Shown here one piece after another: positions 2,225 through 17,861 of a DNA stretch of 22,508 nucleotides. The notes beneath the pieces were generated by a model. The model searched no databases, was not told where the DNA came from, and saw nothing but the letters and a program-made list of their open reading frames with translations. The DNA comes from a virus: positions 1-22,508 of the IMG/VR virus record IMGVR_UViG_3300047444_000412; one strand, written 5' to 3'. Positions within the stretch are counted from its first letter, which is position 1, and each line of letters opens with the position of its first letter. The translations under genes were made by a program, and so were the position numbers.

Positions 2225-2433
2225 AGAAGCAGATGGACGACGCTCGCATGGCCAACGAGATCGCCCAGTCCAAGATCGACGTCCAGAACAAGGCCGCGGC
2301 CGACGCCGCCGACCTCAAGCGCAAGACCAGCTACTCGACGGCGGGCATCGCGGCACTCGCCACGGCGGGCTACGCCGGCTACTCGACGACCGCCCGCCCG
2401 CTCGGCGGCCAGTCGGCCCCGCTCGGCGCCTGA
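2167..2433 (+). CDS. Small hypothetical protein upstream of portal
   Basis: This 88-residue protein is placed by the perfect AGGAGG 5 bases before its ATG and by its stop, which shares one base with the portal start (TGATG). Residues 8-55 are strongly helical, rich in K, D, Q and A (for example KKQMDDARMANEIAQSK), and could form a coiled coil. The C-terminal part has an alanine/glycine-rich stretch (TAGIAALATAGYAGY) and a flexible tail ending in PLGA. Small proteins of this type are common just before portal genes in podoviruses, but I cannot name a function. Its position suggests a role in connector assembly or packaging; that is inference only. Confidence 0.75.
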   Translation: MSLGGGGESKAQSDMFWEMKKQMDDARMANEIAQSKIDVQNKAAADAADLKRKTSYSTAGIAALATAGYAGYSTTARPLGGQSAPLGA

Positions 2434-4190
2434 TGGCGCGCCGGCCCAACCTGCAGCGCCAGCAGCAGCGCGAGCTCACCATGCCGTCGCCGCGCTACAG
2501 CGGCTCGGCCAAGCAGAGCTCCACGGCCGTCGAGCCGATGAACGCGCAGCAGCGTTTCCAGATGGGCGACACGGCCGGCACGATCGCGCCGAAGAAGCCG
2601 AACGCCGACACCAAAAAGACCTACGACAAGCTCTATGCCGAGGCCAATCGCGGGCGCGATCCGTGGATCCAGCTGTGGCAGGAGATCTACAACTACACGC
2701 TGCCGCAGCGCGAGCACTTCTATCAGAAAACGCCGGGCCAGCAGCGCACCGACCTGATCTTCGACGAGACCGCCGTGACCGGCGTGCCGCGCTTCGCCAG
2801 CCGCATGACCTCCGGCTTCTTCCCGCAGTACGGCGAGATCTTCTCGCTGGCCTATGGCCCTGAGAGCCCGCGTCATCTCAACAACCCGCAGGGCCTCCTG
2901 AAGCTCGAGCTGCTGACGCAGATGATCCATCGTTCGTGGCAGCAGTCGAACTTCGCCGCCGAAGTCAGTGAAAGCATGATCGACCTCGGGATCGGCACCG
3001 CCAACGTCTGCCTCGAGGCCGGCGACTTTCCGGGTGACGTCGTGTTCTCGGCCGTGCCGCCGACCCACATCGCCATCCTGCGCGGCCGCGGCGACACGAT
3101 CCGTGGCTGGTTCACCTGGTCGGAGATGGCGCTCGAGGACATCTACCAGCAATGGCCCAAGGGCGACTACGACGACCAGTTCAGGAACCGGCTCAAGAGC
3201 GATCCGCGGGGAAAAGAGAAAGTGGTTCGGGGCGTCTGGGAGTGCGGCACCATCGTGAACCCGGAATGGGTCTCGGTGGTGTGCTGCGCCGGCGCCGCCA
3301 ACAAGCTGATCGTCGAGGAGCGCCTGCGCGGCGCGGGCGCCTGTCCGTGGTCGACCTGCCGGTGGAGCAAGACCGGCATGGACGCCTGGGGCCGCGGCCC
3401 GCTGCAGCTCATCATGCCGGCGGTCAAGACGGCGAATCTCACGGTGCAGCTGGTGCTGGAGAACGCCGAGCTCGCGCTGGGCGGCGTCTGGGTCTATGAC
3501 GACGACGGGGTGTTCAACCCCGACAACATCATCCTGCAGCCGGGCACCTTCATTCCCAAGAGCGCCGGCAGCACGGTGGCGCCGCTCACTTCGGCCGCCA
3601 AGTTCGACGTCAGCCAGCTGGTGCTGGCCGACATGCGGACCAACATCAAGAAGGGCCTGTTCATCGACGAGATGGACACGCCGGGCAAGACGCCGCGCTC
3701 GGCCTACGAGGTGCAGAACCGCATCGCCGAGACCGCCCGCGACCTCAGCGCCCCGGGCGCCCGCATCACCAAGGAACTGCTGGTGCCGTGGGTCAACCGG
3801 ACCATCTACATCTTCGAGAAGCAGGGCATCCTCGAGAGCCTCGGCATGAGGGTGGACGGCAAGCAGCTCAAGCTCGACGTGAAGAGCCCCTTCCTGCGCG
3901 GGCAGGACCAGATCCAGATGAACGACATGATGCAGTTCGCCGGCCAGGTGAACGCGATCTTCGGCGCCGGCACGTCGGCGCTGCTGATGAAGCGCCAGAC
4001 CGCGGTGCCCGAGATGGCCCGGCGCAACGGGGTCTCTCTTTCCTTCCTCAACAGCGACGAGGAAGTGGCCGCGATCCTCGCCAAGGGCGCGCAGGGCGCC
4101 GGCCAGGCCCAGATGGCGGGCGGCCAGGCGCCGGGCAGCGGCGATCCGACCGCGGTTTTCGATAGTCTCGTCAATGCGACCAAGCAATGA
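2433..4190 (+). CDS. Portal (head-to-tail connector) protein
   Basis: This 585-residue protein is expected to form the dodecameric ring at the tail vertex through which terminase loads DNA and to which the tail attaches. Family resemblance to podovirus head-tail connectors is seen in the N-terminal helical segment (DKLYAEANRGRDPWIQLWQ), the motif TDLIFDETAV..VPRFASRMTSGFFP near residues 109-131, and the later ETARDLSAPGARITKEL helix typical of the clip/stem region. Residues 1-50 look disordered. The start at 2433 overlaps the preceding stop by one base; a later ATG at 2481 would remove 16 basic, Gln-rich residues and cannot be excluded. The C-terminus is Gln/Gly/Ala rich. An AAAAGAGAAA run at 3212-3221 (GGA AAA GAG AAA) and TCTCTTT at 4035-4041 are atypical codon clusters in this gene. 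Confidence 0.93.
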   Translation: MARRPNLQRQQQRELTMPSPRYSGSAKQSSTAVEPMNAQQRFQMGDTAGTIAPKKPNADTKKTYDKLYAEANRGRDPWIQLWQEIYNYTLPQREHFYQKTPGQQRTDLIFDETAVTGVPRFASRMTSGFFPQYGEIFSLAYGPESPRHLNNPQGLLKLELLTQMIHRSWQQSNFAAEVSESMIDLGIGTANVCLEAGDFPGDVVFSAVPPTHIAILRGRGDTIRGWFTWSEMALEDIYQQWPKGDYDDQFRNRLKSDPRGKEKVVRGVWECGTIVNPEWVSVVCCAGAANKLIVEERLRGAGACPWSTCRWSKTGMDAWGRGPLQLIMPAVKTANLTVQLVLENAELALGGVWVYDDDGVFNPDNIILQPGTFIPKSAGSTVAPLTSAAKFDVSQLVLADMRTNIKKGLFIDEMDTPGKTPRSAYEVQNRIAETARDLSAPGARITKELLVPWVNRTIYIFEKQGILESLGMRVDGKQLKLDVKSPFLRGQDQIQMNDMMQFAGQVNAIFGAGTSALLMKRQTAVPEMARRNGVSLSFLNSDEEVAAILAKGAQGAGQAQMAGGQAPGSGDPTAVFDSLVNATKQ

Positions 4191-4474
4191 GCGCACGTGC
4201 ACGGGTTCAGGGCGGCCTCCGCGAGCAGATCCAGCGGCCGCAGTCGCTGGACGGCCGGGAGTACAAGCCGGAGATGGAGGAGGAGCTCAACAAGCTGTTC
4301 TGGAGGGTGTTCAAGGAGGACGACGGCCAGAAGATCCTCAGCTACCTCAAGAACCTGACCATCAACGTGAGCTTCGACCACACGATCACGCCCGAGCAGC
4401 TGCTCCACTTCGAGGGCCGGCGCTGGATCGTGAGTTTGATGCTCAAGCGTTTTCAAACTGGAGAAAAAACATGA
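4187..4474 (+). CDS. Bbp19-like small phage protein
   Basis: This 95-residue protein starts inside the portal stop (ATGA). Its core, EEELNKLFWRVFKEDDGQK then a YLKNLT segment and FEGRRWIVSLMLKRF, matches what I know of small podovirus proteins related to Bordetella phage Bbp19. These have a helix ending in F...DGQ.(V/I)L..L, then a (G)RR..V..(I/L) helix. Such genes sit next to the portal in many podoviruses; their biochemical role is unknown to me. The family assignment is from memory of the pattern and should be treated as moderate. Its stop overlaps the next start (ATGA), so it belongs to the same coupled chain. The first 25 residues are basic and probably flexible. Confidence 0.72.
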   Translation: MSARARVQGGLREQIQRPQSLDGREYKPEMEEELNKLFWRVFKEDDGQKILSYLKNLTINVSFDHTITPEQLLHFEGRRWIVSLMLKRFQTGEKT

Positions 4475-4743
4475 GCGAACGGCCTGCAGCGATCGAGCGC
4501 GACATCCACGTTGTCATTTCCGGCAGCGCCCAGCGCCACATCCGCTTTTCCTTCAACCCGTCGAATCTCGACGAGGTCGCCGAGATCAAGACGTTGAGCG
4601 GCGCGCTCATAACCCGCCTCGAGGGCCTGATGCACAAGACGATCGAGCGCGACGAGCTCGCCCAGGACGCGATCAAGCTGGTGCGGGCGGCCTCGATGGC
4701 CGCCGTGCTGGCGGCAACTGCAGAAGTACCCAAGAAAGAGTAA
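4471..4743 (+). CDS. Candidate Acb2/Tad1-type hairpin-domain protein
   Basis: This 90-residue protein is preceded by GGAG at 4460-4463, 7 bases before the ATG, and overlaps the upstream stop (ATGA). Residues 23-52 read RHIRFSFNPSNLDEVAEIK then LSGALITRLEGL, followed after a short linker by ELAQDAIKLVRAASMAAVLAAT (about 62-83). This two-helix plan, with an N-P-S...(V)..IK..(A).LI first helix and an A....(E/R).ASM.AV.A second helix, resembles the Acb2/Tad1 hairpin domain. Acb2 proteins sequester cyclic oligonucleotide signals of CBASS and Thoeris defence. The domain also occurs in uncharacterised phage proteins within structural operons. The resemblance is from recall, not a search; a virion or assembly role is the alternative. 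A gene is very likely real here; sponge activity is unproven. Confidence 0.55.
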   Translation: MSERPAAIERDIHVVISGSAQRHIRFSFNPSNLDEVAEIKTLSGALITRLEGLMHKTIERDELAQDAIKLVRAASMAAVLAATAEVPKKE

Positions 4744-4778: not shown

Positions 4779-5297
4779 ATGCACCTGCGCGGCAGACTGA
4801 CGATGCAGCCCAAGGGCGGCCCGTTCGACAAGGCCAAGGCCAATGCCGGCACCCAGGGCAAGTTCCTCGACACCGGCCTGGGCGCCGGCGCCGACGGCAT
4901 CCGCTCGGGCAGCTCGAGCTCGGGCCAGCATCCGGCGGAAAAGGGCATCGGCACCTCGGGCAAGGGCGAGAGTGGCGCGATCGGCGCTCGTGGCGGCGGC
5001 AACAGTGCCGGCCTGCACGCAAAAGAGAAAATCGCCTCCGGCGCCAAGGGACCGGGCGGCCAGAGCCAGGGCGCCGCGCAGTTCGGCGGGATGCGCCATC
5101 GCGGGCCGATGAAGAAGATGGGCGAGAGCGGCGCTGCCAGCCTCGTCATCTCCAAGGACGTCAAGAACAGCGCCAACGCGAGCCGCAACATGGGCCTCTA
5201 TGCCGGCGAGCAGCCCAGCCTGCGCCTCGATCCGAGCCAGCCGATCGGCGCGCTGCAGCGCCAGCTCAACTACAGCCAGCAGATGTTCCGCAAGTAG
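4779..5297 (+). CDS. Glycine-rich hypothetical protein
   Basis: This 172-residue basic protein is rich in Gly, Ser, Ala and Lys and probably mostly disordered over residues 10-115. The C-terminal third is more ordered in character (SLVISKDVKNSANASRN, then RLDPSQPIGALQRQLNYSQQ), suggesting a short docking segment. I do not recognise a family. Its position between the small head genes and the scaffold, and its strong GGAGG ribosome site, point to abundant expression in the head-assembly phase, perhaps as a minor structural or assembly factor; that is inference. The segment GCA AAA GAG AAA ATC at 5019-5033 departs from the AAG-dominated lysine usage of neighbouring genes. A gap of 9 bases carrying AGGAGAGG separates it from the scaffold start. 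Confidence 0.75.
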   Translation: MHLRGRLTMQPKGGPFDKAKANAGTQGKFLDTGLGAGADGIRSGSSSSGQHPAEKGIGTSGKGESGAIGARGGGNSAGLHAKEKIASGAKGPGGQSQGAAQFGGMRHRGPMKKMGESGAASLVISKDVKNSANASRNMGLYAGEQPSLRLDPSQPIGALQRQLNYSQQMFRK

Positions 5298-5306: not shown

Positions 5307-6284
5307 ATGTCGTTTCCGTTCAATGGCCCGCCACTCAGGATCTGCCATGCACCCCCCGACGGAGAGGCAGGAGCCGGCGCCGGAGATGGGTCCGGCGCCG
5401 GCGACGGCAATGCCGGCGATGGCAGCCAGTCTGGCTCGCCCGCGGCTGGCGCGTCTAAAGGCGCTGCTGCTGATGGAAAGGGAGCTGGAGATCAGGCTGC
5501 TGGAGGCGGTGACGGCAAGGGAGCAGTCAAGAAGGACGGAGCAGCTGGTGACGGTAAGGCTGGTGCTGGCGATGGCGCTGGCAAGGGCGATCAAGGACCG
5601 AAGATTCCCGACAAGTTCCTCGTCGACGGAAAGCTAGACCAGAACAAGCTGCTGCAAAGCTACAGCGAGCTCGAGCGCGCCCAGTTCCGCCGCCGCGAGG
5701 AAGTCCGCGCCGAAGCGCGCAAGGAGATCGAGGACGAGCTCACCGGCCAGCGGCCGGCGACGCCGGGCGACTACAAGGTGGCCGAGACCTTCAAGATCGG
5801 CGACCGCGAGATCCAGCTCAACACCAAGGACCCGATGCTGGACTGGCTGAAGGAAACGGCGCACCGCTACAACATCCCGAACAGCGAGATCGACGGCATC
5901 ATCCAGGGCTATGTTGGCCAGATGATCGCCGCGGCGCCGGCCTGGTCGGCCGAGGCCGAGCAGCTGGGCGTCAACGCCGATGCGCGCCACGCCCGCGTCG
6001 ACGGCTGGCTCAAGGGCAATCTCAGCAAGGAGAACTACAACACCTTCGCCACCATGCCGGCGACCGCCAGGATGATCAAAGCGGTCGAGGAGCTCATGAC
6101 CGTGGCGGGCTCGCCGCCGGTCAGCGAGGACAAGGCCGAGCTGCCGGGCGAGGTGTTCAGCCGCGACGAGCTCAAGGCCATGATGCGCGATCCGCGCTAC
6201 TCCGGCGTTGGCGGCAAGATCGACCAGGCCTACGTTCACAAGGTCAGGGCCGGCTTCCAGCGGTTGAACAACGGCCGCTCGTAA
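5307..6284 (+). CDS. Capsid assembly scaffolding protein
   Basis: This 325-residue acidic protein is expected to template procapsid assembly inside the head and leave before or during packaging. Two podovirus scaffold signatures are visible: IPDKFLVDGKLDQNKLLQSY followed by SELE near residues 100-123, and the C-terminal block FSRDELKAMMRDPRYSG...DQAYVHKV followed by a GFQRL helix near 284-320, which in this family contacts the capsid protein. Residues 19-98 are a Gly/Ala/Asp/Lys low-complexity stretch with repeated GAGDG and DGKG units, presumably a flexible linker. That stretch uses GGA, GGT, GCT, GAT, TCT and AAA codons far more than the rest of the gene, so it differs in codon use from its own 3' half. 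The gene lies directly before the capsid gene, as is standard for scaffolds. Confidence 0.9.
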   Translation: MSFPFNGPPLRICHAPPDGEAGAGAGDGSGAGDGNAGDGSQSGSPAAGASKGAAADGKGAGDQAAGGGDGKGAVKKDGAAGDGKAGAGDGAGKGDQGPKIPDKFLVDGKLDQNKLLQSYSELERAQFRRREEVRAEARKEIEDELTGQRPATPGDYKVAETFKIGDREIQLNTKDPMLDWLKETAHRYNIPNSEIDGIIQGYVGQMIAAAPAWSAEAEQLGVNADARHARVDGWLKGNLSKENYNTFATMPATARMIKAVEELMTVAGSPPVSEDKAELPGEVFSRDELKAMMRDPRYSGVGGKIDQAYVHKVRAGFQRLNNGRS

Positions 6285-6422: not shown

Positions 6423-7238
6423 ATGCCCAACCCGACAATCGACGTCGCCTTCGTTCAGGAGTTCGAGCAGGGCGTGCACGAAGCCTACCAGCTGCAGGGC
6501 AGCCACTTCCGCGCCTGCTGCCGCACCCGCTCGGGTGTGAAGAACAAGACCACCTTCCAGAAGTACGGCGCCGGCGTGGCCACCCAGAAGGCCCGCAACG
6601 CCATCATCCCGCCGATGAACAACGATCACACCAACGTGTCGGTCACGCTCGAGGACTGGTACGCCGGCGACTTCATCGACGACCTCGACGTGCTGCGCGT
6701 CAACCACGACGAGATGCTCGCCAGCCAGCGCGCCGGAGCCTTCGCTCTCGGCCGCAAGACCGACGAGCAGATCATCAACGCGCTGTCGGCCTCGACCACG
6801 ACCAACGACGAGACCACCAACGGCGCCACGCTCGCCTGGGCAACCGCCAGCATGGTCACGATGGGCAACAATAACGTGCCCGACGACGGCGACCGCTTCG
6901 CGCTCGTCGGCTGGGAACAGTGGGGCCGCCTCATGGGGATCGTGCAGTTCTCGAACAGCCAGTACGTCGGCGAGGACGACCTACCCTACAAGCTCGGGAC
7001 CCAGGCCAAGCGCTGGATGAGCTTCATGTGGATGCCGTTCTCGGGCTACGTCCGCGGCACCAACTCGACCAACTATCAGTTCCATCGCTCCGCGGTGGGC
7101 CACGCCATCGGCGAGGACGTCAACAGCACGATCACCTATGAAGGCACGCGGGCGGCCTACTGGGCGATGAACAAGATGCAGATGAACGCCGTGATGATCG
7201 ACACGTTCGGCGTCATCAAGTGCAGCCTCAAGGTCTAG
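6423..7238 (+). CDS. Major capsid protein
   Basis: This 271-residue protein is the likely major head shell protein. It follows the scaffold and precedes a small accessory gene and a strong terminator, the standard position. The sequence fits the short capsid proteins of T7-like and related marine-type podoviruses: an N-terminal FVQEFEQGVHEAYQLQGS helix, then a VSVTLEDWYAGDFIDDLDVL strand/helix block near residues 68-90, a polar TTTNDETTNGAT loop, FALVGWEQWGRLM near 159-171, and a C-terminal MNAVMIDTFGVIKCSLKV strand. The fold is presumed HK97-like from family knowledge, not visible here. GGAG at 6413-6416 lies 6 bases before the ATG. Its 138-base leader contains a hairpin and a possible promoter, consistent with high dedicated expression. 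Confidence 0.9.
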   Translation: MPNPTIDVAFVQEFEQGVHEAYQLQGSHFRACCRTRSGVKNKTTFQKYGAGVATQKARNAIIPPMNNDHTNVSVTLEDWYAGDFIDDLDVLRVNHDEMLASQRAGAFALGRKTDEQIINALSASTTTNDETTNGATLAWATASMVTMGNNNVPDDGDRFALVGWEQWGRLMGIVQFSNSQYVGEDDLPYKLGTQAKRWMSFMWMPFSGYVRGTNSTNYQFHRSAVGHAIGEDVNSTITYEGTRAAYWAMNKMQMNAVMIDTFGVIKCSLKV

Positions 7239-7276
7239 GCCGCACGGTTCTCACTCCAGCATAAGGACACTCCCCA

Positions 7277-7525
7277 ATGGCTTTCGATCGTTCCAAGATG
7301 CAGCTGATCGGCACCGGCGGCGCCGGCAAGAACTGGTCCTACGACACCGCGGATACCCACGCCACGGTGATCGCAGCCAACTACTTCTCACCGATGCAAA
7401 ACGATCTGGTGCTCAACGACCGCATCCAGCTCCACGACGGCACAGGTTTCTACGACCTGGTGATCGCCACATCGGTCAAGGCCACCGGCGCCGTCACCGT
7501 CCTCTCCAGCGCAGCTTACGCTTAG
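7277..7525 (+). CDS. Small head-associated (possible decoration) protein
   Basis: This 82-residue protein is preceded by AAGGA (7263-7267), 9 bases before the ATG. The pattern MAFDRSKMQLIGTGG, a W.YDTADTHATV core, an NYFSP segment, and LNDRIQL..GTGFYDLVIATSV is a beta-rich plan that I recall from small proteins encoded directly after podovirus capsid genes. They may decorate or stabilise the head, but I cannot cite a characterised member. It lies between the capsid gene and the terminator at 7551-7588, so it is the last gene of the head transcription unit and should be co-expressed with the capsid. Confidence 0.75.
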   Translation: MAFDRSKMQLIGTGGAGKNWSYDTADTHATVIAANYFSPMQNDLVLNDRIQLHDGTGFYDLVIATSVKATGAVTVLSSAAYA

Positions 7526-7602: not shown

Positions 7603-8229
7603 ATGGCCCAGGAACCGCTGCCCAAAAACCCGCAGGAGGTGGCGTCAAGGGCCGCGGTGATGCTGGGGCTGGACCCGATCACCAGCTTTGCCGAGCAGGA
7701 GCGCGCCGAGGTCATCGTCGCCAGCCAGCTCTACGAGGTCATCCTGGCCGACGTGACGGCCGCCTATCCGTGGCGCCATTGCACCGGCCAGCAGCAGCTC
7801 GAGGTCGATCCCGACCCACCGCTCGACCGCTACGAGACAGCCTTCCATCTGCCGGTGCTCGAGGATGGCCAGCCCTTCACGATCGAGCGCATCACCTGCG
7901 GCGGTCTCGAGGGCGTGCGCTACGACATCAACGGCAGCCGGCTCTATGCCTACACCGACGCCAATCAGGTCGTGATCTGCACCTATCAGTACAGGGTGGC
8001 CGAGGCCTTCTGGCCGCCGTGGTTCACCCTGCTGCTGATCTTCCGGCTGGCCGAGGCGCTGGCCAGCGCGGTGACGCGCAATGCCGGGCAGATCAAGGGC
8101 ATGGGCGAGCTCGCCGATCGGCAGTTCAGCCGCGCCAAGACCCGCGACAGCCAGCAGGTCACGACCAAGGTGATGCGCCAGAGCGCGTTCGAGCGGAAGC
8201 GCCGCGTGCAGGGCGGCTTCACCTCATGA
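7603..8229 (+). CDS. Tail tubular protein A (gatekeeper, T7 gp11-like)
   Basis: This 208-residue protein is close in length to T7 gp11 (about 196). It is expected to form the ring joining portal to tail nozzle and to attach the fibres. Family features are an N-terminal helical block (ASRAAVMLGLDPI...EQERAEVIVASQLYEVILADV) followed by YPWRHC, typical of the A-PW segment in these proteins. A beta-rich middle has YETAFHLPVLEDG, and a long helix near 140-190 (LLLIFRLAEALASAVTRN) carries the alternating A/R pattern. GAGG at 7594-7597 precedes the ATG by 5 bases. Its stop overlaps the next start (ATGA), coupling it to tubular protein B, its assembly partner. Confidence 0.9.
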   Translation: MAQEPLPKNPQEVASRAAVMLGLDPITSFAEQERAEVIVASQLYEVILADVTAAYPWRHCTGQQQLEVDPDPPLDRYETAFHLPVLEDGQPFTIERITCGGLEGVRYDINGSRLYAYTDANQVVICTYQYRVAEAFWPPWFTLLLIFRLAEALASAVTRNAGQIKGMGELADRQFSRAKTRDSQQVTTKVMRQSAFERKRRVQGGFTS

Positions 8230-10193
8230 TCCGCAAGCTGCAGAGCAATTTCACCAACGGCGCCATCTCGCAGGTCATGCACGCCCGCGTCGACCACCCG
8301 AGCTATCAGAACAGCGCCAAGACGATCGAGAACTGCAAGCTGCTGCCGCAGGGCGGCGTCACGCGCCGGCCCGGCACCTTCATGGTCGGCGAGGTCGCCT
8401 ACTCCGATGCCCAGGTCGAGGAGTTCGTGTTCTCGAGCACGCAGGCCTACACGTTCTTTCTGTCCGAGGGCCGGCTCGACATCTGGGACAAGAACGCGAT
8501 CGCCTTTGCCCAGACGCTGACCGGCCTGCCGTGGACGGCGACGCACGTTGCCAACACGGCGCTGTGCTGCACGCAGGCGCTCGACACCATGCTGATCAGC
8601 AACCAGGACTTCGCCACGGTTGTGATCAAGCGCTACGGGCCGACCGATTTCCGGGTCGAGGGCATCGCCTTCCCCTACGATGGCAACACCAACTTCCTTT
8701 GCCCGTTCCACAAGTTCGCGCCGACCGATTCGACGCTCCAGCTGAGCGGAGCCGGCCCCGGCGCCGGCATCACCGCGACCTGCTCGGTTGCCTACTTCAC
8801 GGCCGGTCACGTCGGCACCAACATCCGCTACAAGGGCCAGCAGATGGCGATTGTGTCGCTGGTGGGTGCGGCGCCGGCGACCACGGTGAACGTCTATGTC
8901 CGCCCGCCAGGCATCAAGCCGCATCCCGACCTGACGCCAGACCTCGGCCCAGACCCCGAGTGGGACGAGGAGGCGATCCCCGGCTCCGGCATCCACGGCT
9001 GGATCAAGACGACGGCCTTCCACGAGCAGCGCCTGGTGCTGGGCGGCACGCGGGACCTGCCGAATACGCTGTGGCTCAGCCAGACCAACCAGCCGTTCAA
9101 CTTCGACCTCGGCACCGGCCTCGACAGCGAGGCGATCAAGGAAACGATCTATGCCGATCGCGTCGTCGAGATTCGCGCCCTGGTGTCGATGGGCAACCTG
9201 CAGATCTTCTGCGGCCACGGCGAGTTCATCGTTCCGTGGGGCGGCCAGAACGCGCTGACGCCGGCCAACTTCTCGGTCAAGCAGCAGTCGGGCTACGGCA
9301 TCAAGATGGCGCGGGCCCGCCGCTTCGACCAGGCGACAGTTTTTGTCACCCGTGTCGCCAACTCGGTGCGCGAGTTCGCGATCACCACCGGGACCTGGGT
9401 GGAGAGCTACGCCGCCGATTCGATGACCTTCATGGCCGAAGGCATCGTACGCAGCCCCAAGTCGCTCGACACTCAGATGGAGGGCATCGGCAGCCAGCAG
9501 GCGATCTGCTACGTCACCAACAGCGACGGCACGCTCGCTGTGCTGACCAAGGTGAAAAAAGAGAGCATCGGGGGCTGGCTGCTGTGGACCACGGCCGGCA
9601 CCTTCCAGCGTATCGGCATCGTCGATCGCCAGGGCTGGACGCTGACCCGCCGCAATATCGCCGGGACGTGGCGCAACTTCATCGAGGTGTTCGACGACGA
9701 CTGGCGGCTCGACGCGGCCATCTCGGCCGTGTTCGGCTCGCCGACAAGCCACGTCGGCCCGTTTCCGCTCTATGTCGGCCAGAGCGTGACGGCGATCACC
9801 GGCGACCTCTACATCGGCGAGTTCGTCGTCGACAGCACGGGCTATATCGACCTGCCGCTCGAGGTCTCGCAGGTCGAGATCGGCCTCAACTTCGTGCCCA
9901 GGGTGGTGCCGCTGCAGATGGAAGTGCCGCTCGCCGACGGCATCAGCTACGGCAAGCCCAAGCGCTACGTCCGCACCATCGCCGACATCCTCGACACGGC
10001 CTCGATCCGCGTCGCCGGCCGAACGCTCAACACCAGCCAGCCCGACACCGACCCGGGAGCGCCGACGCCGACGCGCACCGGGCAGTTCGAGGTCTGGCAT
10101 CTCGGCTGGCACGTCCAGCCGGACATAGAGATCACGTCGCCCCTGCCGCTGCCGTTCACGATGCGCGGCCTCATGATCGAGGTGGAAGTATGA
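8226..10193 (+). CDS. Tail tubular protein B (tail nozzle, T7 gp12-like)
   Basis: This 655-residue protein is somewhat shorter than T7 gp12 (about 794). It should form the distal nozzle of the short tail through which DNA exits. The N-terminus is diagnostic for the family: FTNGAISQVMHARVDHPSY, then a KTIENCKLLPQ segment and GGVTRRPGT at residues 43-51. The rest is beta-rich, with FVFSSTQAYTFFLSEGRLDI near 68-87 and a later block of the form EWDEEAIPG...W, HEQRLVLGGTRDLPNTLWLS and NQPFNFDLG that recurs in nozzle proteins. The start is set by the ATGA overlap with tubular protein A. GTG AAA AAA GAG AGC at 9552-9566 is an AT-rich codon cluster. It ends in an ATGA overlap with the next gene. Confidence 0.93.
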   Translation: MIRKLQSNFTNGAISQVMHARVDHPSYQNSAKTIENCKLLPQGGVTRRPGTFMVGEVAYSDAQVEEFVFSSTQAYTFFLSEGRLDIWDKNAIAFAQTLTGLPWTATHVANTALCCTQALDTMLISNQDFATVVIKRYGPTDFRVEGIAFPYDGNTNFLCPFHKFAPTDSTLQLSGAGPGAGITATCSVAYFTAGHVGTNIRYKGQQMAIVSLVGAAPATTVNVYVRPPGIKPHPDLTPDLGPDPEWDEEAIPGSGIHGWIKTTAFHEQRLVLGGTRDLPNTLWLSQTNQPFNFDLGTGLDSEAIKETIYADRVVEIRALVSMGNLQIFCGHGEFIVPWGGQNALTPANFSVKQQSGYGIKMARARRFDQATVFVTRVANSVREFAITTGTWVESYAADSMTFMAEGIVRSPKSLDTQMEGIGSQQAICYVTNSDGTLAVLTKVKKESIGGWLLWTTAGTFQRIGIVDRQGWTLTRRNIAGTWRNFIEVFDDDWRLDAAISAVFGSPTSHVGPFPLYVGQSVTAITGDLYIGEFVVDSTGYIDLPLEVSQVEIGLNFVPRVVPLQMEVPLADGISYGKPKRYVRTIADILDTASIRVAGRTLNTSQPDTDPGAPTPTRTGQFEVWHLGWHVQPDIEITSPLPLPFTMRGLMIEVEV

Positions 10194-10735
10194 GCGTCCA
10201 GTACGCGATGATGGGGATGCAGCTCGCTGGCACGGTGATGAGCGCGCTCAGCCAGAAGGACACTGGCCAGCTTCAGGCCCAGCAGGGCGTCCTGCAGGGC
10301 ACCTCGGCCGATCTTCAGAAGAGCCAGGTCGGCCTCGAGGAGGCAATGACCGAGCGCAAGATGCGGATGCAGGTCGCCCAGCTGCTCTCGACCAACGAGG
10401 CCTCCGCCGGCGCCCGCGGCATCAGCCTCGATCCGGGTACGTCCTTCGACGTGATCCAGAAGCACGATGTTTCCTCGATGGAGGAGAACATCGCCAACAT
10501 GAGGCTGATGGGCGAGAGCAAGAAAGCGCAGCTCTCTTTTGCCGCCGAGGACGCCGTGGCGGCCGGGCAGGCGGCCCAGCAGGGCGCCAATACTGGCATG
10601 TGGGCCACCCTGCTGTCGGGCGGCGCCAAGGCTCTCGGCATGGGCAAGCTCAACCTGGGCGATCCCAGCAAGTGGTTCGCCAGCGACGCCACGAAGGGCA
10701 TTCCCGATCCCGGCAGCTACGGCGCGAGTGCCTGA
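10190..10735 (+). CDS. Internal virion protein, T7 gp14-like
   Basis: This 181-residue protein is close in size to T7 gp14 (about 196) and lies directly after the nozzle gene, the T7 position. It is expected in the internal core, ejected at infection to form the outer-membrane part of the DNA channel. The N-terminus is hydrophobic and Met-rich (MMGMQLAGTVMSAL), followed by long helices and the signature ASAGARGISLDPGTSFDV (about 71-88), seen in gp14-type proteins. A second hydrophobic stretch (MWATLLSGGAKALGMG) lies near 137-152, and the end is short and flexible. GAGGTGG at 10179-10185 and the ATGA overlap set the start. The stop shares one base with the next ATG (TGATG). TCTCTTTT at 10533-10540 is in the LSF codons. 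Confidence 0.87.
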   Translation: MSVQYAMMGMQLAGTVMSALSQKDTGQLQAQQGVLQGTSADLQKSQVGLEEAMTERKMRMQVAQLLSTNEASAGARGISLDPGTSFDVIQKHDVSSMEENIANMRLMGESKKAQLSFAAEDAVAAGQAAQQGANTGMWATLLSGGAKALGMGKLNLGDPSKWFASDATKGIPDPGSYGASA

Positions 10736-13700
10736 TGGCCGACCTTCAGCGCATTGATCCCTCGGTCGTTCCGACGCCCACGGAGAGCGCGCCGCCGACG
10801 CAGCTCGTCAACCAGCTGACGCGCAACGCCGAGCAGCTGCAGCGCGCCATCCCGGCGCTGACCGACCAGCTCTACCAGGTGGCCGATGCCGCCTCGGCCG
10901 ACGCCGGCGCCAAGGATGCCGCCAAGCTCATCGACCCCAACGGCGACGGCAAGGTGGTCGCCCCTGCATCGTTCCGCCCGCCCGGCTGGCAGTTCAACAG
11001 CTACGCCAACACCTACGAGCAGACGGCGCGGGCGCTCTACTTCACCGCCGCCAAGTCCGAGTTCGACACCTTTCGCCAGACGCAGGAGACCAAGTTCCCG
11101 ACCGACAGCGTGGCTCTTGGGACCGCGCTGAAGGAAAAGAAAGACGCCATGCTTTCCCAGATGGGCGCCGAGTACCGCCCGTTCATGGCGGTCACGTTCA
11201 ACAGCTCCGTGGCCCAGTCGATCTCGAAGGCCGAGAACAACGCCGAGCTCGAGAAGCACCAGGCCCTCGTCAGCACGGCGAATCGCGAGATGGCGGGCTT
11301 CGCCGACGAGGTCGGCAAGTCGGCCGGCTGGCAGGCCAACATCGACAAGGCCGGACCCGGCGGCATCAGCCAGGAGACCATCGACGCCACCTTCAAGCTG
11401 CACGAGCTCGACTGGCAGCAGCGCATCAAGCCGCTGCTCGAGAAGGCCGGCGCCTCACCCGCCGCGATCGCCGACTATCAGGAGAAGGTCAAGGCCAAGG
11501 CCATCGTCGCCGGCGGTCAGGCCTGGATGGGCCGGGCCAACCTGCTCTATCCCCCCGGCCACGAGCGCGCCGGAATGCCCAATCAGGAAGCGATCGCGCA
11601 GGCCGAGCAGTTCATTCGCGACGTCAGCAAGGGCAAGTACGCCGCCGAGATCCGACAGGGCCTGTCGGCCGGGCTCGCCGAAGCGAGCTCGATCGCCTCG
11701 CATCTCGGGCAGGCCAAGCGCGACCAGAAAGACGACGAGATCATGACCCAGCATCGCACGACGATGCAGACGGTCGAGAGCATGAAGCAGACCGACCTGC
11801 CCGACAGCGAGCAGAACGCGGCGATCGTCAACATGCTGAAGAAGCAGCGCCAGGACATCCTGTTCGATCCGCGCTTCTCGGCCGCCGACACGGCCAAGCG
11901 GCTGGCGCTGAACGACCAGGTGCTGCACACCCAGACCGCGGCCAACCACGAATACTACGGTGGCCAGATCGTGCAGCTCGCTGCCCAGGCGCACGATGCG
12001 GCGCTCACGCCCTCGCAGCGCCAGCAGTCGGCCGACGACCTGCAGGCGATGGTGCAGGATCCGAACCTCGCGCCCGTGCTGTCGCCGGCGCTGAAGGCCC
12101 ACGCCGAGCAGTCGCTTGGTCAGTTCCATCGCGCCAAGGCAGCCACGGAGTTCCATGCGGTGGTGGCCGACATGGCGGCGGGCAACGTCCCGATCGCCTC
12201 CTACTCCGACTTCGTGCGCGACTTCGGCGCGAGGGGAATGATCTCGGGCGACCCCGGCGCGGTCGGCACTGAAACTCAGATGGCGCAGGCGATGGCGGCC
12301 GGCGCCAAGATCCAGAAGGAGCGCAAGCAGAACCAGCAGATGGCCGCCGACGGCTACAAGGCCGTGCAGGACGGAGGCGTGCCGAGCGCCGAGCAGGCCA
12401 AGGCCATCTCGGCCGGCCAGCCCTTCACGGTCGGTGGCAAGCCGTTCAACCCGATGACGCCCGGCCACGCCGAGGCGATGGTGGCGTCCTACCGCGTCAA
12501 CCGCGTGGTCGATCCCACCGTCAAGACGGCGATGGAGGATCTGCCGTTCGCCGGCAACGCCGACGCCGCCGAATCCGTCCGCAAGATCTATGACGGCATG
12601 AGAAAGGTGCTGCGCGAGACCGTGCCGGCGGGCCAGAACATCGGCATCCACGCCACCATCCAGAAGCAGCTCGGCACCGACGTCGCAGACTTCGGCCGCC
12701 TGGTGTCGCGCACCGGCGATCCGCTGCTGGCGATGAAGGAGTGGACTAACCGCTCGGTGTCCGATTCGGGCAGCGCCGGCGCCAGCACCAAGGACATTGC
12801 CGGCCGCACCAACGACGCCATCGACCAGTGGCTCAACAACCCCGACACCATCGGCTACCTGCAGAGCTCGCTGCCCGGCAAGTGGCTCTACGGCAAGCCG
12901 ACGATCGCCCAGCAGGCGATGGCCGACATGGCCGGCCGCGGCCGATCGGCGACGACGCTCGGCGGCTTCGGCGGCGCCCGCTACAACAGGGTGGAGATCG
13001 AGGACGGCTCGATCCGCGAGGAATGGAACAACCATGCCTCCGGCGCCGTGATCAGCAACGGAGGGCTCGCCCAGAGCATCACCGGCGATCGCTGGCGCGA
13101 TGCCGTCGAGACCGGCCAGCGCATGATCGCCGACGACCTCGAGATCGTCGATCACCCGACCAAGCCCGGCGTCGGGCTGCTGCAGCGCCTCGGGTCGGAG
13201 ACCCTGACGGCCAAGGCCAACGGGCTCGATCCAACGGCGGTGACACGCGACGATGCGTGGCGCTACTGGGGCACGATCGCCAACAGCTGGCGGCAGATCA
13301 ACGGCGGCGCGGCCGGTCCCGAAGTGGACCCCACCACGGTGCGCGCCGAGTCCTTCCGGGCCGACGACGGCACCAAGATGATCCGCGTCACCGATCGCGT
13401 CGGCGGCACGAAGAGCTGGTATGGCGGCATGACGCAGGGCGGCCAGGAGCGGGTGATCTTCGAGCTGCCGCAGGATCATCCGGTGATGACGCTGGGCCGC
13501 GACCTGCAGTACATGGCCGCCCAGCACATCGACCAGATCATCCGGCCCAAGCCCAGCCCCGAGCTCGAGGCGATGAAGCCGGCGCTCAGCATGGCCTATG
13601 CCGGCTATCTCGCCGAGCGGGCGCTGCACTTCGGCGAGTACGCCCAGGTCAAGACGCCCGGCCTCAACGAGCGTTTCCGCAAGGGACTGATGTTCGAGGA

Positions 13701-13950
13701 GCTGCGCGCCGGCACCGGCTCGCCCTCGTTCTTCGCCCACCCCGAGATGCTGTGGACGCGCATGAGCAACATGCCGTCGGCCCCGACCGTGGCCGAGTGG
13801 CGCAGCAAGCTGGCGGCCCAGAGCGAAGCCGGACGGCAGGCGCGCATCCGCGATCAGGAGAGCCTCAGCATCTCCAAGTTCCTCACCCAGGGCGGCGAGC
13901 TCGGCGCCGGCATGCCCATGCCGCGGCCCGATACCCGCGTGGCGCCCTGA
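10735..13950 (+). CDS. Large internal virion protein, T7 gp15 position
   Basis: This 1071-residue protein occupies the position of T7 gp15 (about 747 residues), so it is notably longer. The first two thirds are Ala/Gln/Lys/Glu-rich helices, for example AENNAELEKHQALVSTANRE and AQAMAAGAKIQKERKQNQQ, as expected for a periplasm-spanning ejection protein. The C-terminal third (about 720-930) changes to a mixed Gly/Trp/Asp-rich region (GGFGGARYNRVEIEDGSIRE, DAWRYWGTIANSWRQINGG). I see no peptidase, transglycosylase or nuclease motif. The start is set by TGATG overlap with the gp14-like gene, and the end by TGATG overlap with the next. The assignment rests on order, size class and helical composition rather than a recognised domain. 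Confidence 0.8.
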   Translation: MADLQRIDPSVVPTPTESAPPTQLVNQLTRNAEQLQRAIPALTDQLYQVADAASADAGAKDAAKLIDPNGDGKVVAPASFRPPGWQFNSYANTYEQTARALYFTAAKSEFDTFRQTQETKFPTDSVALGTALKEKKDAMLSQMGAEYRPFMAVTFNSSVAQSISKAENNAELEKHQALVSTANREMAGFADEVGKSAGWQANIDKAGPGGISQETIDATFKLHELDWQQRIKPLLEKAGASPAAIADYQEKVKAKAIVAGGQAWMGRANLLYPPGHERAGMPNQEAIAQAEQFIRDVSKGKYAAEIRQGLSAGLAEASSIASHLGQAKRDQKDDEIMTQHRTTMQTVESMKQTDLPDSEQNAAIVNMLKKQRQDILFDPRFSAADTAKRLALNDQVLHTQTAANHEYYGGQIVQLAAQAHDAALTPSQRQQSADDLQAMVQDPNLAPVLSPALKAHAEQSLGQFHRAKAATEFHAVVADMAAGNVPIASYSDFVRDFGARGMISGDPGAVGTETQMAQAMAAGAKIQKERKQNQQMAADGYKAVQDGGVPSAEQAKAISAGQPFTVGGKPFNPMTPGHAEAMVASYRVNRVVDPTVKTAMEDLPFAGNADAAESVRKIYDGMRKVLRETVPAGQNIGIHATIQKQLGTDVADFGRLVSRTGDPLLAMKEWTNRSVSDSGSAGASTKDIAGRTNDAIDQWLNNPDTIGYLQSSLPGKWLYGKPTIAQQAMADMAGRGRSATTLGGFGGARYNRVEIEDGSIREEWNNHASGAVISNGGLAQSITGDRWRDAVETGQRMIADDLEIVDHPTKPGVGLLQRLGSETLTAKANGLDPTAVTRDDAWRYWGTIANSWRQINGGAAGPEVDPTTVRAESFRADDGTKMIRVTDRVGGTKSWYGGMTQGGQERVIFELPQDHPVMTLGRDLQYMAAQHIDQIIRPKPSPELEAMKPALSMAYAGYLAERALHFGEYAQVKTPGLNERFRKGLMFEELRAGTGSPSFFAHPEMLWTRMSNMPSAPTVAEWRSKLAAQSEAGRQARIRDQESLSISKFLTQGGELGAGMPMPRPDTRVAP

Positions 13951-16900
13951 TGGCCGACCCCAAGACCCAGCTGCTCGACAGCAGCGGCGCCCCGATCCAG
14001 CCGGACTTCATGGCCGAGCATCGGGCGGCGATGGACGGCATCTATCGGCGCATCCTGGGCGAGCCGCTGATGCAGGCGCCCAACCCGGTCGCCGACGCCA
14101 TCGGCCTGCGCCACGCCACGCTCGCCTCCGCGCCGCCGATCGACCTCAGCCCCGAGGAACCGGCCGGCAGTCCCTACCTGCGCCTGCCCGAGAGTAATCT
14201 CTTTCTTCAACAGCACAGCCTGGGCTGGCTCGAGCCGGCGACCGATTTCATCGGCAACAACGCCGCCAGCTTCGCGCACGCCTTTCACAACTCGTCGATC
14301 GGCAAGATGGTCAACGGCCTGTCGGAAGCCGTGGCCAATCGCTTCACCGACCAGCCGGGCTACGATCCCTTCAAGGATCCCCAGGTGCTGAACTCGCCGC
14401 TGAACGGACAGTGGCACCTGTTCGAGGGCAGCAGCAGCGAGGCGCAGACGCGGTGGATCATCGGCCGCCAGCGCGAGCAGGCGAAGATCGAGGAGTACCT
14501 GCAGAGCGCCCGCTCGGTGAGCCCGGTGTCGTCGTTTGTCGCCCAGATCATCGGCGACCCGCTGACCTACACGCCGATCGGCGGCATCAGCCTCGCCAAC
14601 TCGGCGAGCCGCATCGCCCGCGGCGCCGCCAGTGCGGGCGAGAAGGCGGCCTTCCAGTGGAAAAGCGTGGCGTTCGGCTCGCTGGGCGACGCCGTTCGCG
14701 GCGCGGGCACGCAGGCGGCGCTCGGCCTTGCCTCGATGGCGGCGCAGCAGGGTTTCGACGCCCACGCCCACTCCGGCGACATTGCCGAGCAGCTCGCCCT
14801 GCCGATGGCCCTGGGCGGTGCGGTGATGGGCATACATGGCGCGATGAGCCGGCTGGGCGGCAACCTCAACGCCGTGCGCGAGATGCTGCTGAACCGCGAT
14901 TCGGGCTTCACCGACGCCACCGGACCGGGACCGAGGCCCGGCGACCTGCCGCCCGGCCTCGACCCCGGCACGATCGAGCGGACGTGGCGCAACTTCGCCC
15001 AGGACCTGCACTGGGCCCACATCAGGGACGAGGCGGCCGGTCCGGCCATACCCGACCCGGCCTACGACCTGCTGAAGCCGGGCGCGCTGGCGACCAACTA
15101 TTCGGTGCTGACCGCGGCCGAGCACGCCCACGGCCTGGCGCTCGATCGCATGGAGGAGGTGCTGCAGCGCAAGGACTTCGTGCCCGAGAGCACGATCCCG
15201 GCGACGCGGGCCAAGGCGCTGTCGATCGCCCAGGGCGAGATCGCCGCGGAGTTCCCTGGCATGACCGGCATCGTCGATCCAGCCGAGGCGATGAAGCAGG
15301 CCGCTCCGAGCGGTAGCGTCGGCGCGGCGATGGCCGACCCGTCGAAATGGACACGCGAGGCCCAGCTCGCCGGCAACCGGCTGGTCAAGGTGCGTGGCCT
15401 GCCCGACCTGCCCAACCCGGTGTTCCGGGCGGCGGCGTCGAACCTGCTGGCCTTCCAGCATGTGGTCGAGGACCTGGTCGACAGCGGCGGCCTGCTGCGG
15501 GTCAAGAACCTTGCCGGCATGGCCAGCCTGCCGAGCGTCGAGGGGGCGATCCGTCAGGTCTGGAACCGGCCGATGGTGCAGGCGCTCCGCACCACGCTCG
15601 ACGAGTGGCGCAAGTTCAGGGAGGGCGGCGGCTACGAGCCCAAGGGCGACTACGGCAGCTTCTTCGCCGCCCAGAAGCTCAGGGCCCGCGACAAGTTCGG
15701 CGACACGGGGCAGCTCAGCTACGAAGCTTTTCGCCGGCGCGTCGGCGATGCGCTTCGCAACGGCGATCGCGACACCGTGCAGGACGCGGCAAGCAAGAAC
15801 GTCGAGGCCGCGGCGATGGCGCACCGCGAGATCTACCGGGCCACCAAGGAGCAGGGCCTCGAGGTCGGCCTGTTCAGGCAGGCGCACGAGCGTGCGCTGG
15901 AGCAGGGCCGCAAGGAGCTCGACGCGATCGAGAAGAAACTCGGCGATTCCACGCTGAGCGCGAGCGAAAAGAAAGCTCTGGAGGACCAGCGCGAGCGAGC
16001 CGAGGCGGTGTTCGAGCTCGACAAGAAGCGCCTCGACAAGTTCCTCGCCAACGGCATCGACAGCTCGGAGACCGCGCCCTCGTACCTGCCGCGCTATTGG
16101 CTCGCCCAGACGCTGAAGGACAACGAGGCAGAGGCCAAGTCGATCTTCCAGAACCATCTCTACAGCAAGGGCGTCGGCTGGGAGGAGGCTGGCAAGGGCG
16201 CCAACGAGATCTTCGAGATCGTGTCGCGCCAGAAGCCGCTCTATGAGCGCGGGGACATCGACGCGGTGTTCAAGAGCGTGGCCGACCCGATGAGCGCGCA
16301 TGCCCGCAGCTTCCAGATTCCCGACTACAAGGTGGCGAAGTTCCTCGAGAACGACGCCGAGATGATCCTGCGCCATCACGTCAAGGACATGGGCGCCAAG
16401 ATCGAGATGATGCGCCGCTTCGGCAGCACCGACCTGGTCGAGGAAGCCGGCGAGATCAGCCGCGAGACCGTCAATCTCATTCAGGAGGCGCACACGCGCC
16501 TCGGCGAAGGGCCGGAGTTCGAAGCCGAGAAAGCCACGCTGATGAAGCAGCGCGACAGCGCGCTCGAGGACATGCAGGCGTTGCGCGACCGGCTCTACGG
16601 CACCTACGGCGCCGCGGCCGATCCGCACCGGCTGCAGAGCCGGCTAATCCGCATGGCCAAGCAGTTCACCAACCTGACGACGCTCGGGATGTCGGGCATC
16701 ACCGCGCTAGGCGACCTCGCCCGGCCGGCGATGACCGAAGGCCTGCAGGCGATGAACCACTACGGCTTCCAGACGCTGATGAGCGATGCCCGGGCGACCA
16801 TCCTCAACCTCAGCCGCCGCGAGCTCGAGCTCGGCGGCGATGCGATGGAGCTGGAGCTCAACCTGCGCTCGGCTTCGCTCAGCGACTCCGGCGAGATGTT

Positions 16901-17861
16901 CATGGAACGCTCTGGCTTCGAGCGCTTCCTGAACAAGACCAACGAGCTCTTTTTTGTCGCCAACGGGCTGAACTTCGCCAACCAGATCGACAAGCACTGG
17001 GGCGGCCTCATCCTGATGGCGAACATGAACGAGCGCCTGATGGGCCACCACCTGGGCGACGTGCCGATGGACCCGACGCTGGCGGCTCGCTATGCGGCGA
17101 CCGGCATCGACCAGGCGATGGGCAAGCGCATCGCCGGCGAGCTCGAGCAGCACGGCATCCGTTTCAAGAACCTGACACTGGCCAACACCGAGGCGTGGAC
17201 CGACCGGCTGGCGGCCGACACCTACTCGAAATCCATCGTGGCTCAGGTCAACCGCGTGGTGCCGACGCCCGGTGCCGGCGATCGCCCGCTGTTCATGTCG
17301 AGCGAGCTTGGCTCGCTGCTGACGCAGTACAAGGCCTTCGGCATGGGGGCGACGACACGCATCCTCTATGCCGGGCTGCAGGAGGAAGGCGCGAAGTTCT
17401 GGCTCGGCGCCTCGGTCATGGTGGGCGGCGCACTGCTGCTGAACGAGATGCGCTCGCGGCTGTTCTCCAACCAGTCGACGGCCGACCGGCCGATGACGGC
17501 GATGGTGGCCGACGCGATCGACCGTTCCTCGGTCATGGGCATCTTCTCCGACGCCAACCGGGCGGTCGAGATGCTGTCGGGCCATCGCCTGGGCGTACGG
17601 CCGATGCTGGGCGGCGAATCGGCGCACGGCGAAGGCTGGGGCCGGCAGGTTGGCTCGGTTGCCGGACCCTTCGCCGGCCAGGTCGCTAACGCGGCGAGCG
17701 TGGTCGACGACACGTTCTTCAATCATCCGGTGGCGGCGACCTTCCGCAACGCCCGCCAGCTCGTGCCGGGCCAGAACCTTCCGTACATTGATCCCATTGC
17801 CGATCGCGCCGTCAGCATCGCCCGCCACATGATGCTGAGGCCGCCGGGGCAGGAGGACTAG
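13950..17861 (+). CDS. Largest internal virion / DNA ejection protein, T7 gp16-like
   Basis: This 1303-residue protein is very near the length of T7 gp16 (about 1318) and is third in the ejection-protein series. In T7 this protein spans the inner membrane and pulls in the first part of the genome. Visible features are a hydrophobic stretch SPVSSFVAQIIGDPLTYTP near 190-209 and alanine/glycine-rich helices to about 310. A charged coiled-coil-like region lies near 630-700 (QGRKELDAIEKKLG, KKALEDQRERAEAVFELDKK). The C-terminal block GSLLTQYKAFGMGATTRI, then a hydrophobic segment WLGASVMVGGALLLNEM near 1150-1167 and AIDRSSVMGIFSDANRAVEM, is a plan I recall from large podovirus ejection proteins. 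T7 gp16 has an N-terminal lytic transglycosylase domain; I see no such domain here. Coupled start by TGATG. Confidence 0.85.
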   Translation: MADPKTQLLDSSGAPIQPDFMAEHRAAMDGIYRRILGEPLMQAPNPVADAIGLRHATLASAPPIDLSPEEPAGSPYLRLPESNLFLQQHSLGWLEPATDFIGNNAASFAHAFHNSSIGKMVNGLSEAVANRFTDQPGYDPFKDPQVLNSPLNGQWHLFEGSSSEAQTRWIIGRQREQAKIEEYLQSARSVSPVSSFVAQIIGDPLTYTPIGGISLANSASRIARGAASAGEKAAFQWKSVAFGSLGDAVRGAGTQAALGLASMAAQQGFDAHAHSGDIAEQLALPMALGGAVMGIHGAMSRLGGNLNAVREMLLNRDSGFTDATGPGPRPGDLPPGLDPGTIERTWRNFAQDLHWAHIRDEAAGPAIPDPAYDLLKPGALATNYSVLTAAEHAHGLALDRMEEVLQRKDFVPESTIPATRAKALSIAQGEIAAEFPGMTGIVDPAEAMKQAAPSGSVGAAMADPSKWTREAQLAGNRLVKVRGLPDLPNPVFRAAASNLLAFQHVVEDLVDSGGLLRVKNLAGMASLPSVEGAIRQVWNRPMVQALRTTLDEWRKFREGGGYEPKGDYGSFFAAQKLRARDKFGDTGQLSYEAFRRRVGDALRNGDRDTVQDAASKNVEAAAMAHREIYRATKEQGLEVGLFRQAHERALEQGRKELDAIEKKLGDSTLSASEKKALEDQRERAEAVFELDKKRLDKFLANGIDSSETAPSYLPRYWLAQTLKDNEAEAKSIFQNHLYSKGVGWEEAGKGANEIFEIVSRQKPLYERGDIDAVFKSVADPMSAHARSFQIPDYKVAKFLENDAEMILRHHVKDMGAKIEMMRRFGSTDLVEEAGEISRETVNLIQEAHTRLGEGPEFEAEKATLMKQRDSALEDMQALRDRLYGTYGAAADPHRLQSRLIRMAKQFTNLTTLGMSGITALGDLARPAMTEGLQAMNHYGFQTLMSDARATILNLSRRELELGGDAMELELNLRSASLSDSGEMFMERSGFERFLNKTNELFFVANGLNFANQIDKHWGGLILMANMNERLMGHHLGDVPMDPTLAARYAATGIDQAMGKRIAGELEQHGIRFKNLTLANTEAWTDRLAADTYSKSIVAQVNRVVPTPGAGDRPLFMSSELGSLLTQYKAFGMGATTRILYAGLQEEGAKFWLGASVMVGGALLLNEMRSRLFSNQSTADRPMTAMVADAIDRSSVMGIFSDANRAVEMLSGHRLGVRPMLGGESAHGEGWGRQVGSVAGPFAGQVANAASVVDDTFFNHPVAATFRNARQLVPGQNLPYIDPIADRAVSIARHMMLRPPGQED
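17851..17856 (+). promoter_or_regulatory. Strong Shine-Dalgarno AGGAGG for first fibre gene
   Basis: A perfect AGGAGG ends 5 bases before the ATG at 17862 and overlaps the 3' end of the ejection-protein gene. It suggests the fibre gene is translated independently and strongly instead of relying on coupling. Confidence 0.8.

Follow-up and report, generated by a model that had tools for sequence, protein, structure and literature searches.

Organization of a podovirus head operon

The stretch of DNA analysed here (the window; 22,508 nt, IMG/VR virus record IMGVR_UViG_3300047444_000412, 22.5 kb) carries podovirus head and tail genes, including the terminase large subunit. Its head genes run in the order portal, Bbp19-like protein, 90-aa gene, 172-aa ORF, scaffold and major capsid protein, after which the tail genes follow:

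2433–4190, + strand: portal / head-tail connecting protein (PF12236, E = 4.2e-63)
4187–4474, + strand: Bbp19-like small protein, the upstream neighbour (PF25181, E = 8.5e-4, below the cut-off)
4471–4474, + strand: ATGA start/stop overlap with the upstream gene, seen in the sequence, with a TTGA counterpart in the relative L010 (8019–8022); candidate translational coupling
4471–4743, + strand: 90-aa protein, very probably a diverged Acb2/Tad1-hairpin homologue (profile score, hhalign, AlphaFold hairpin with family alignment)
5307–6284, + strand: scaffold / capsid assembly protein (PF05396, E = 1.8e-8)
6423–7238, + strand: major capsid protein (PF19821, E = 2.3e-50)

The homologues of the Bbp19-like protein encoded at the corresponding position in Hodr and L050 score over the PF25181 cut-off.

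The translation of 4471–4743 is MSERPAAIERDIHVVISGSAQRHIRFSFNPSNLDEVAEIKTLSGALITRLEGLMHKTIERDELAQDAIKLVRAASMAAVLAATAEVPKKE (90 aa); it carries FNPSNLDEVAEIK and an A..R.ASM.AV.AAT-like second helix, so that the ORF and sequence pattern given in a preliminary description of this DNA are real. Because its ATG overlaps the upstream stop, the translational coupling proposed there is plausible. A second phage contig (L010, 38 kb) holds a 60%-identical copy (58–60%) in the same slot between head genes, with a TTG start at 8019 that overlaps the upstream stop in the same arrangement, which argues that the start of the 90-aa gene is well placed; three other IMG/VR contigs carry identical copies. Substitutions between the window and L010 copies number 31, 24 and 47 at codon positions 1, 2 and 3 (90 codons), the third position being the richest. 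From the identical copies, the same-slot homologue and this third-position bias, 4471–4743 is a genuine coding ORF. Scans for close relatives of the protein returned this one lineage only, and the window's own MAAVLAAT motif, used as a query, retrieved no further relatives.

The preliminary description had set the gene between portal-proximal genes and the scaffold. One correction is needed: a 172-aa Gly/Ser/Lys-rich ORF with no family match (4779–5297) intervenes before the scaffold gene. L010 has no room for such an ORF (8289–8420), so the stretch of the head operon 3' of the hairpin gene is variable. The hairpin gene itself is absent between the Bbp19-like gene and the scaffold in L009 (whose capsid protein is 81% identical to that of the window), Hodr, MEP301 and MT838907; since these related phages have the same head genes and an empty slot, the 90-aa gene looks like an accessory insert. 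The portal-to-scaffold location and the coupling to the preceding gene would also suit a head-assembly or virion protein, with the hairpin taken over as a small structural component or a partner in scaffolding, as would the loss of family-conserved residues described below. We consider such a role unlikely: related phages lack the gene while retaining the rest of this head operon, and PF24729 proteins whose motifs are intact are encoded at this slot but also in replication and lysis regions of other phages, a distribution that fits accessory cargo better.

Farther downstream, two very large ORFs without a Pfam match (10735–13950 and 13947–17861, about 1071 and 1304 aa) occupy the position of the internal virion protein genes in T7-like phages. 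A tail-fibre-like ORF (19063–21513) repeats a stretch coding for GG(A/D)L(S/A)GTYPNPT four times or more (at 19624, 19939, 20308 and 20506), where none is expected by chance.

Sequence relationship to the Acb2/Tad1 hairpin family

Acb2 and Tad1 bind cyclic di- or trinucleotides or gcADPR and so act against CBASS or Thoeris. Their shared hairpin domain is modelled in Pfam as PF24729 (Acb2_Tad1_hairpin, curated cut-off 27 bits), and this model gave no match to the 90-aa protein at E up to 1 and nothing in the L010 relative or in either whole record at E up to 10; control sequences scored 37–74 bits. Direct searches of the ORF against Pfam, PHROGs, NCBIfam and PDB sequences returned chance matches only, and a profile comparison of the two-sequence query with 18 Acb2/Tad1 types alone failed. 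A weak tblastn match (E = 3) in phage records, which fell within a Paenibacillus tail-region gene, was rejected.

A connection emerged through a subgroup of the family. MWAVKA[AV]T, which we take to be a motif of one PF24729 subgroup, was used as a DNA pattern in viral contigs and gave at least 120 matches; nearly all of the 80 loci among the matches listed code for short proteins that follow the pattern ...FNPS...V..IK...A.LID...R...LA.T..E.AAMWAVKAAT. All 21 of the subgroup proteins sampled match PF24729, and members, for example from Pasteurella phage Pmp11, Enterobacter phage EcP1 and DSL-LC05, match PHROG 717 and PHROG 1454. As the loci were picked by the motif, conservation of its Trp and Lys across the 80 is by construction, and six isolate phages found by similarity, not by motif, served as a check. 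Bait sequences were used for record fetching and as positive controls only; the evidence for homology rests on the real sequences found afterwards.

Against a profile of 75 real PF24729-type proteins the window protein scored 38.3 bits, the highest score among 10,000 shuffles being 13.7 bits; the L010 relative scored 34.6 bits against the subgroup profile. Among 7,964 ORFs in a background test, the window ORF reached 35.3 bits and the next unrelated ORF 6.7, while other ORFs sharing just the MAAVLAAT motif scored at most 4.4 bits. The six-isolate profile, free of motif selection, gave 32.1 bits versus 14.7 for shuffles. The profile-profile check suggested in the preliminary description was borne out, with hhalign aligning the window protein to real PF24729 subgroup proteins at a probability of 97.1% (E = 6.6e-11); the subgroup in turn aligned to Acb2/Tad1 types at 96.6% (E = 6.2e-10). 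The link from the window protein to Acb2 thus takes two steps, because the direct step fails.

In register with the subgroup, the window protein shares FNPS, I-K, L-I and A-x-M-x-A-V-x-A-x-T, at about 23–39% identity over the alignment. It differs in having A77 and L80 in place of Trp and Lys and E62 in place of Arg, in lacking a G-E-K/R motif before FNPS, and in a longer N-terminus, whose extra stretch of about 15–20 residues is missing from most relatives.

Taken from these profile comparisons, the window protein is very probably homologous to the Acb2/Tad1 hairpin group. The earlier assignment to that family therefore survives by way of the FNPS subgroup, and finds nothing in the Pfam model or in the profile of Acb2/Tad1 types alone. 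It is highly improbable that an unrelated Ala-rich helical protein resembles the family by chance: the Pfam model and the PDB sequence search do miss the window protein, but its score lies far above shuffles, background ORFs and motif-sharing ORFs, and real family members show independent synteny in related head operons. Since the protein neither reaches the Pfam cut-off nor retains the full set of conserved residues of Acb2, we call it neither Acb2 nor Tad1 and treat it as a diverged homologue, which may nevertheless act as they do.

Predicted fold and ligand-side residues

An AlphaFold (AF2) model built with the family alignment (pLDDT 91) has a short helix at residues 18–23 and long helices at 34–52 and 58–83, so that the two-helix hairpin proposed from the sequence pattern is also predicted by structure modelling. 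The elements map to the window as follows:

4522–4539, + strand: N-terminal element, residues 18–23; predicted short helix (family-based model), or strands 8–14 and 22–28 (two-sequence model)
4552–4563, + strand: FNPS motif, residues 28–31, kept across the subgroup; F28 aligned with the Acb2 tyrosine
4570–4626, + strand: predicted helix 1, residues 34–52 (AF2, alignment); K40 aligned with the Acb2 lysine
4642–4719, + strand: predicted helix 2, residues 58–83 (AF2, alignments); E62, K69, A77 and L80 replace the subgroup Arg, Thr, Trp and Lys

A second, lineage-only model made from two sequences (pLDDT 69) also contains the helical hairpin, and the models agree on its limits (residues 33/34–52/53 and 58–83/84) and differ in the N-terminal element, which the second builds as a beta hairpin whose strands 8–14 and 22–28 are of low confidence (block pLDDT 44–57). 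In a Foldseek search of a viral library, the top two matches to the family-based model were Acb2/Tad1-hairpin proteins (E = 1.2e-3 and 1.0e-2); the PDB gave no significant match, and the two-sequence model found no relative in the viral library, so that the fold match depends on the family alignment. The predicted fold is consistent with the sequence result. A short N-terminal element followed by two long helices, as in the family-based model, is the layout of the Acb2 protomer (PMC12043709, PMC10419184).

Likeness to Acb2 (Pseudomonas phage type, PDB 8h2j and 8ixz; T4 Vs.4) extends in that model to two long antiparallel helices with a short N-terminal element. In a joint alignment, the tyrosine of the Acb2 GYR motif falls on F28 and the helix-1 lysine on K40, whereas the helix-2 Arg, Thr and Arg fall on E62, K69 and L80, and the C-terminal aromatic, a Phe in Acb2, is absent from the window protein. 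From this alignment, we take the helix-1 Lys and the helix-2 Arg/Thr/Arg to be ligand-side positions of Acb2. In the pocket comparison called for in the preliminary description, the protein thus does not keep the ligand-side set of Acb2: of the N-terminal aromatic, Lys, Arg/Thr/Arg and C-terminal aromatic, F28 and K40 are the only members retained. The roles of the Tyr and the C-terminal Phe are described in PMC12657218, F82 of T4 Acb2 being the C-terminal base-stacking residue. Tad1 (PDB 7uav, 8kbe) resembles the window protein in its C-terminal helical hairpin, which belongs to the same Pfam domain, and possibly in the N-terminal beta element of the two-sequence model; it is longer, has a four-strand N-terminal sheet (PMC12043709) and gave no direct match to the window protein.

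The Trp and Lys replaced by A77 and L80 in the window lineage are present in each of the six isolates (canonical Acb2 likewise lacks that subgroup Trp). Both lineage members, window and L010, share the helix-2 changes, and the C-terminal part of the helix (ASMAAVLAATAEVPK) is invariant between them, so the divergence looks maintained and not random. Another helix-2 register, keeping R60 and LAQ-AI, was judged less likely, as the helix would then have to contain both a deletion and an insertion of three residues.

Loss of the Arg, Thr, Lys/Arg and C-terminal aromatic positions, together with confinement of the gene to one lineage, could be read as decay, in which a former Acb2/Tad1-type gene has lost ligand binding and is kept by hitch-hiking in the operon. 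This is improbable, given that the frame stays open at 58–60% identity in a relative with 68% portal identity, that changes are biased to the third codon position and that the end of helix 2 is invariant; by these same signs, selection seems to act on the 90-aa gene. Alternatively, the hairpin might now bind some other partner, a host protein for example, instead of a nucleotide signal. A helix-2 surface that is changed yet conserved within the lineage would suit a new partner, as would the extra N-terminal residues, but F28 and K40, which align with ligand-side positions of Acb2, are kept, and we regard this reading, too, as unlikely.

Hairpin genes in the head operons of other phages

The preliminary description had called a late, structural-operon location unusual; this is not supported, for such a location recurs in L090, Thiohalocapsa phage MD04, L050 and Gordonia phage Chidiebere. 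In L090, a PF24729 gene (7017–7370) lies within the order TerL-like ORF, portal, PF24729, scaffold-like ORF, capsid, and in MD04 (LS06-2018-MD04) the canonical Acb2-like gene 15 lies between portal and scaffold, both exactly the portal-scaffold slot of the window. The MD04 protein differs from the window protein in keeping the GYR, K, RW, R and C-terminal F motifs. L050 has the order Bbp19-like, scaffold, PF24729, capsid, with the hairpin gene (1393–1701) adjoining the capsid gene, and L162 also carries a PF24729 gene in its head operon (5998–6222). In Chidiebere (L017), a PF24729-type gene (4998–5216) directly follows the portal gene; genes annotated as RNA ligase and VIP2-like ADP-ribosyltransferase come next in that operon.

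Elsewhere, the gene lies between terminase and portal in DSL-LC05 and before the terminase in Pmp11 and S1249, and in other phages PF24729 genes are found near replication, early or lysis genes. Rhizobium phage RHph_X2_26 (L032) carries an Acb2-type gene (277–525) directly after a TIR-domain gene, a possible defence/anti-defence pair.

A candidate late-acting sponge

We propose, at even chances and from sequence comparison, that the 90-aa protein is a late-expressed, diverged nucleotide sponge, probably with an altered choice of ligand. The gene sits as an accessory insert among conserved late head genes of a podovirus and encodes a small homologue of the FNPS...AVKAAT type with two predicted helices; the protein would oligomerise as does Acb2, which is a compact homohexamer, the oligomer would bind a nucleotide-type defence signal, and CBASS- or Thoeris-like effectors would stay off while head proteins accumulate. 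As the helix-2 residues have diverged, the ligand is probably not that of canonical Acb2, or binding is weaker. Phages deleted for acb2 are reported to escape CBASS by mutation of a major capsid gene (PMC10419184), and a capsid-gene escape route of this kind makes a late sponge plausible. Counting against a sponge is that we found no ligand reported for the FNPS...AVKAAT subgroup. That the protein functions as a nucleotide sponge of some kind is, in our judgement, about as likely as not.

Retention of the operon slot and the hairpin, with replacement of conserved helix-2 residues, suggests a further alternative, namely that a sponge fold was converted in one podovirus lineage to a head-morphogenesis or virion protein, or to a sponge that takes up a signal not yet described; we hold this to be rather doubtful.

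The diverged late sponge is our preferred reading. The window protein represents a further branch of the Acb2/Tad1 hairpin family, missed by Pfam, PHROGs and NCBIfam models, and genes of this hairpin type recur inside head operons. This opens to experiment the question of whether signal sequestration is timed in some phages to coincide with the making of capsids, the step to which the CBASS capsid escape mutation points. Should members of this branch bind none of the known signals, they would illustrate the distance that the fold can travel from its sponge function.
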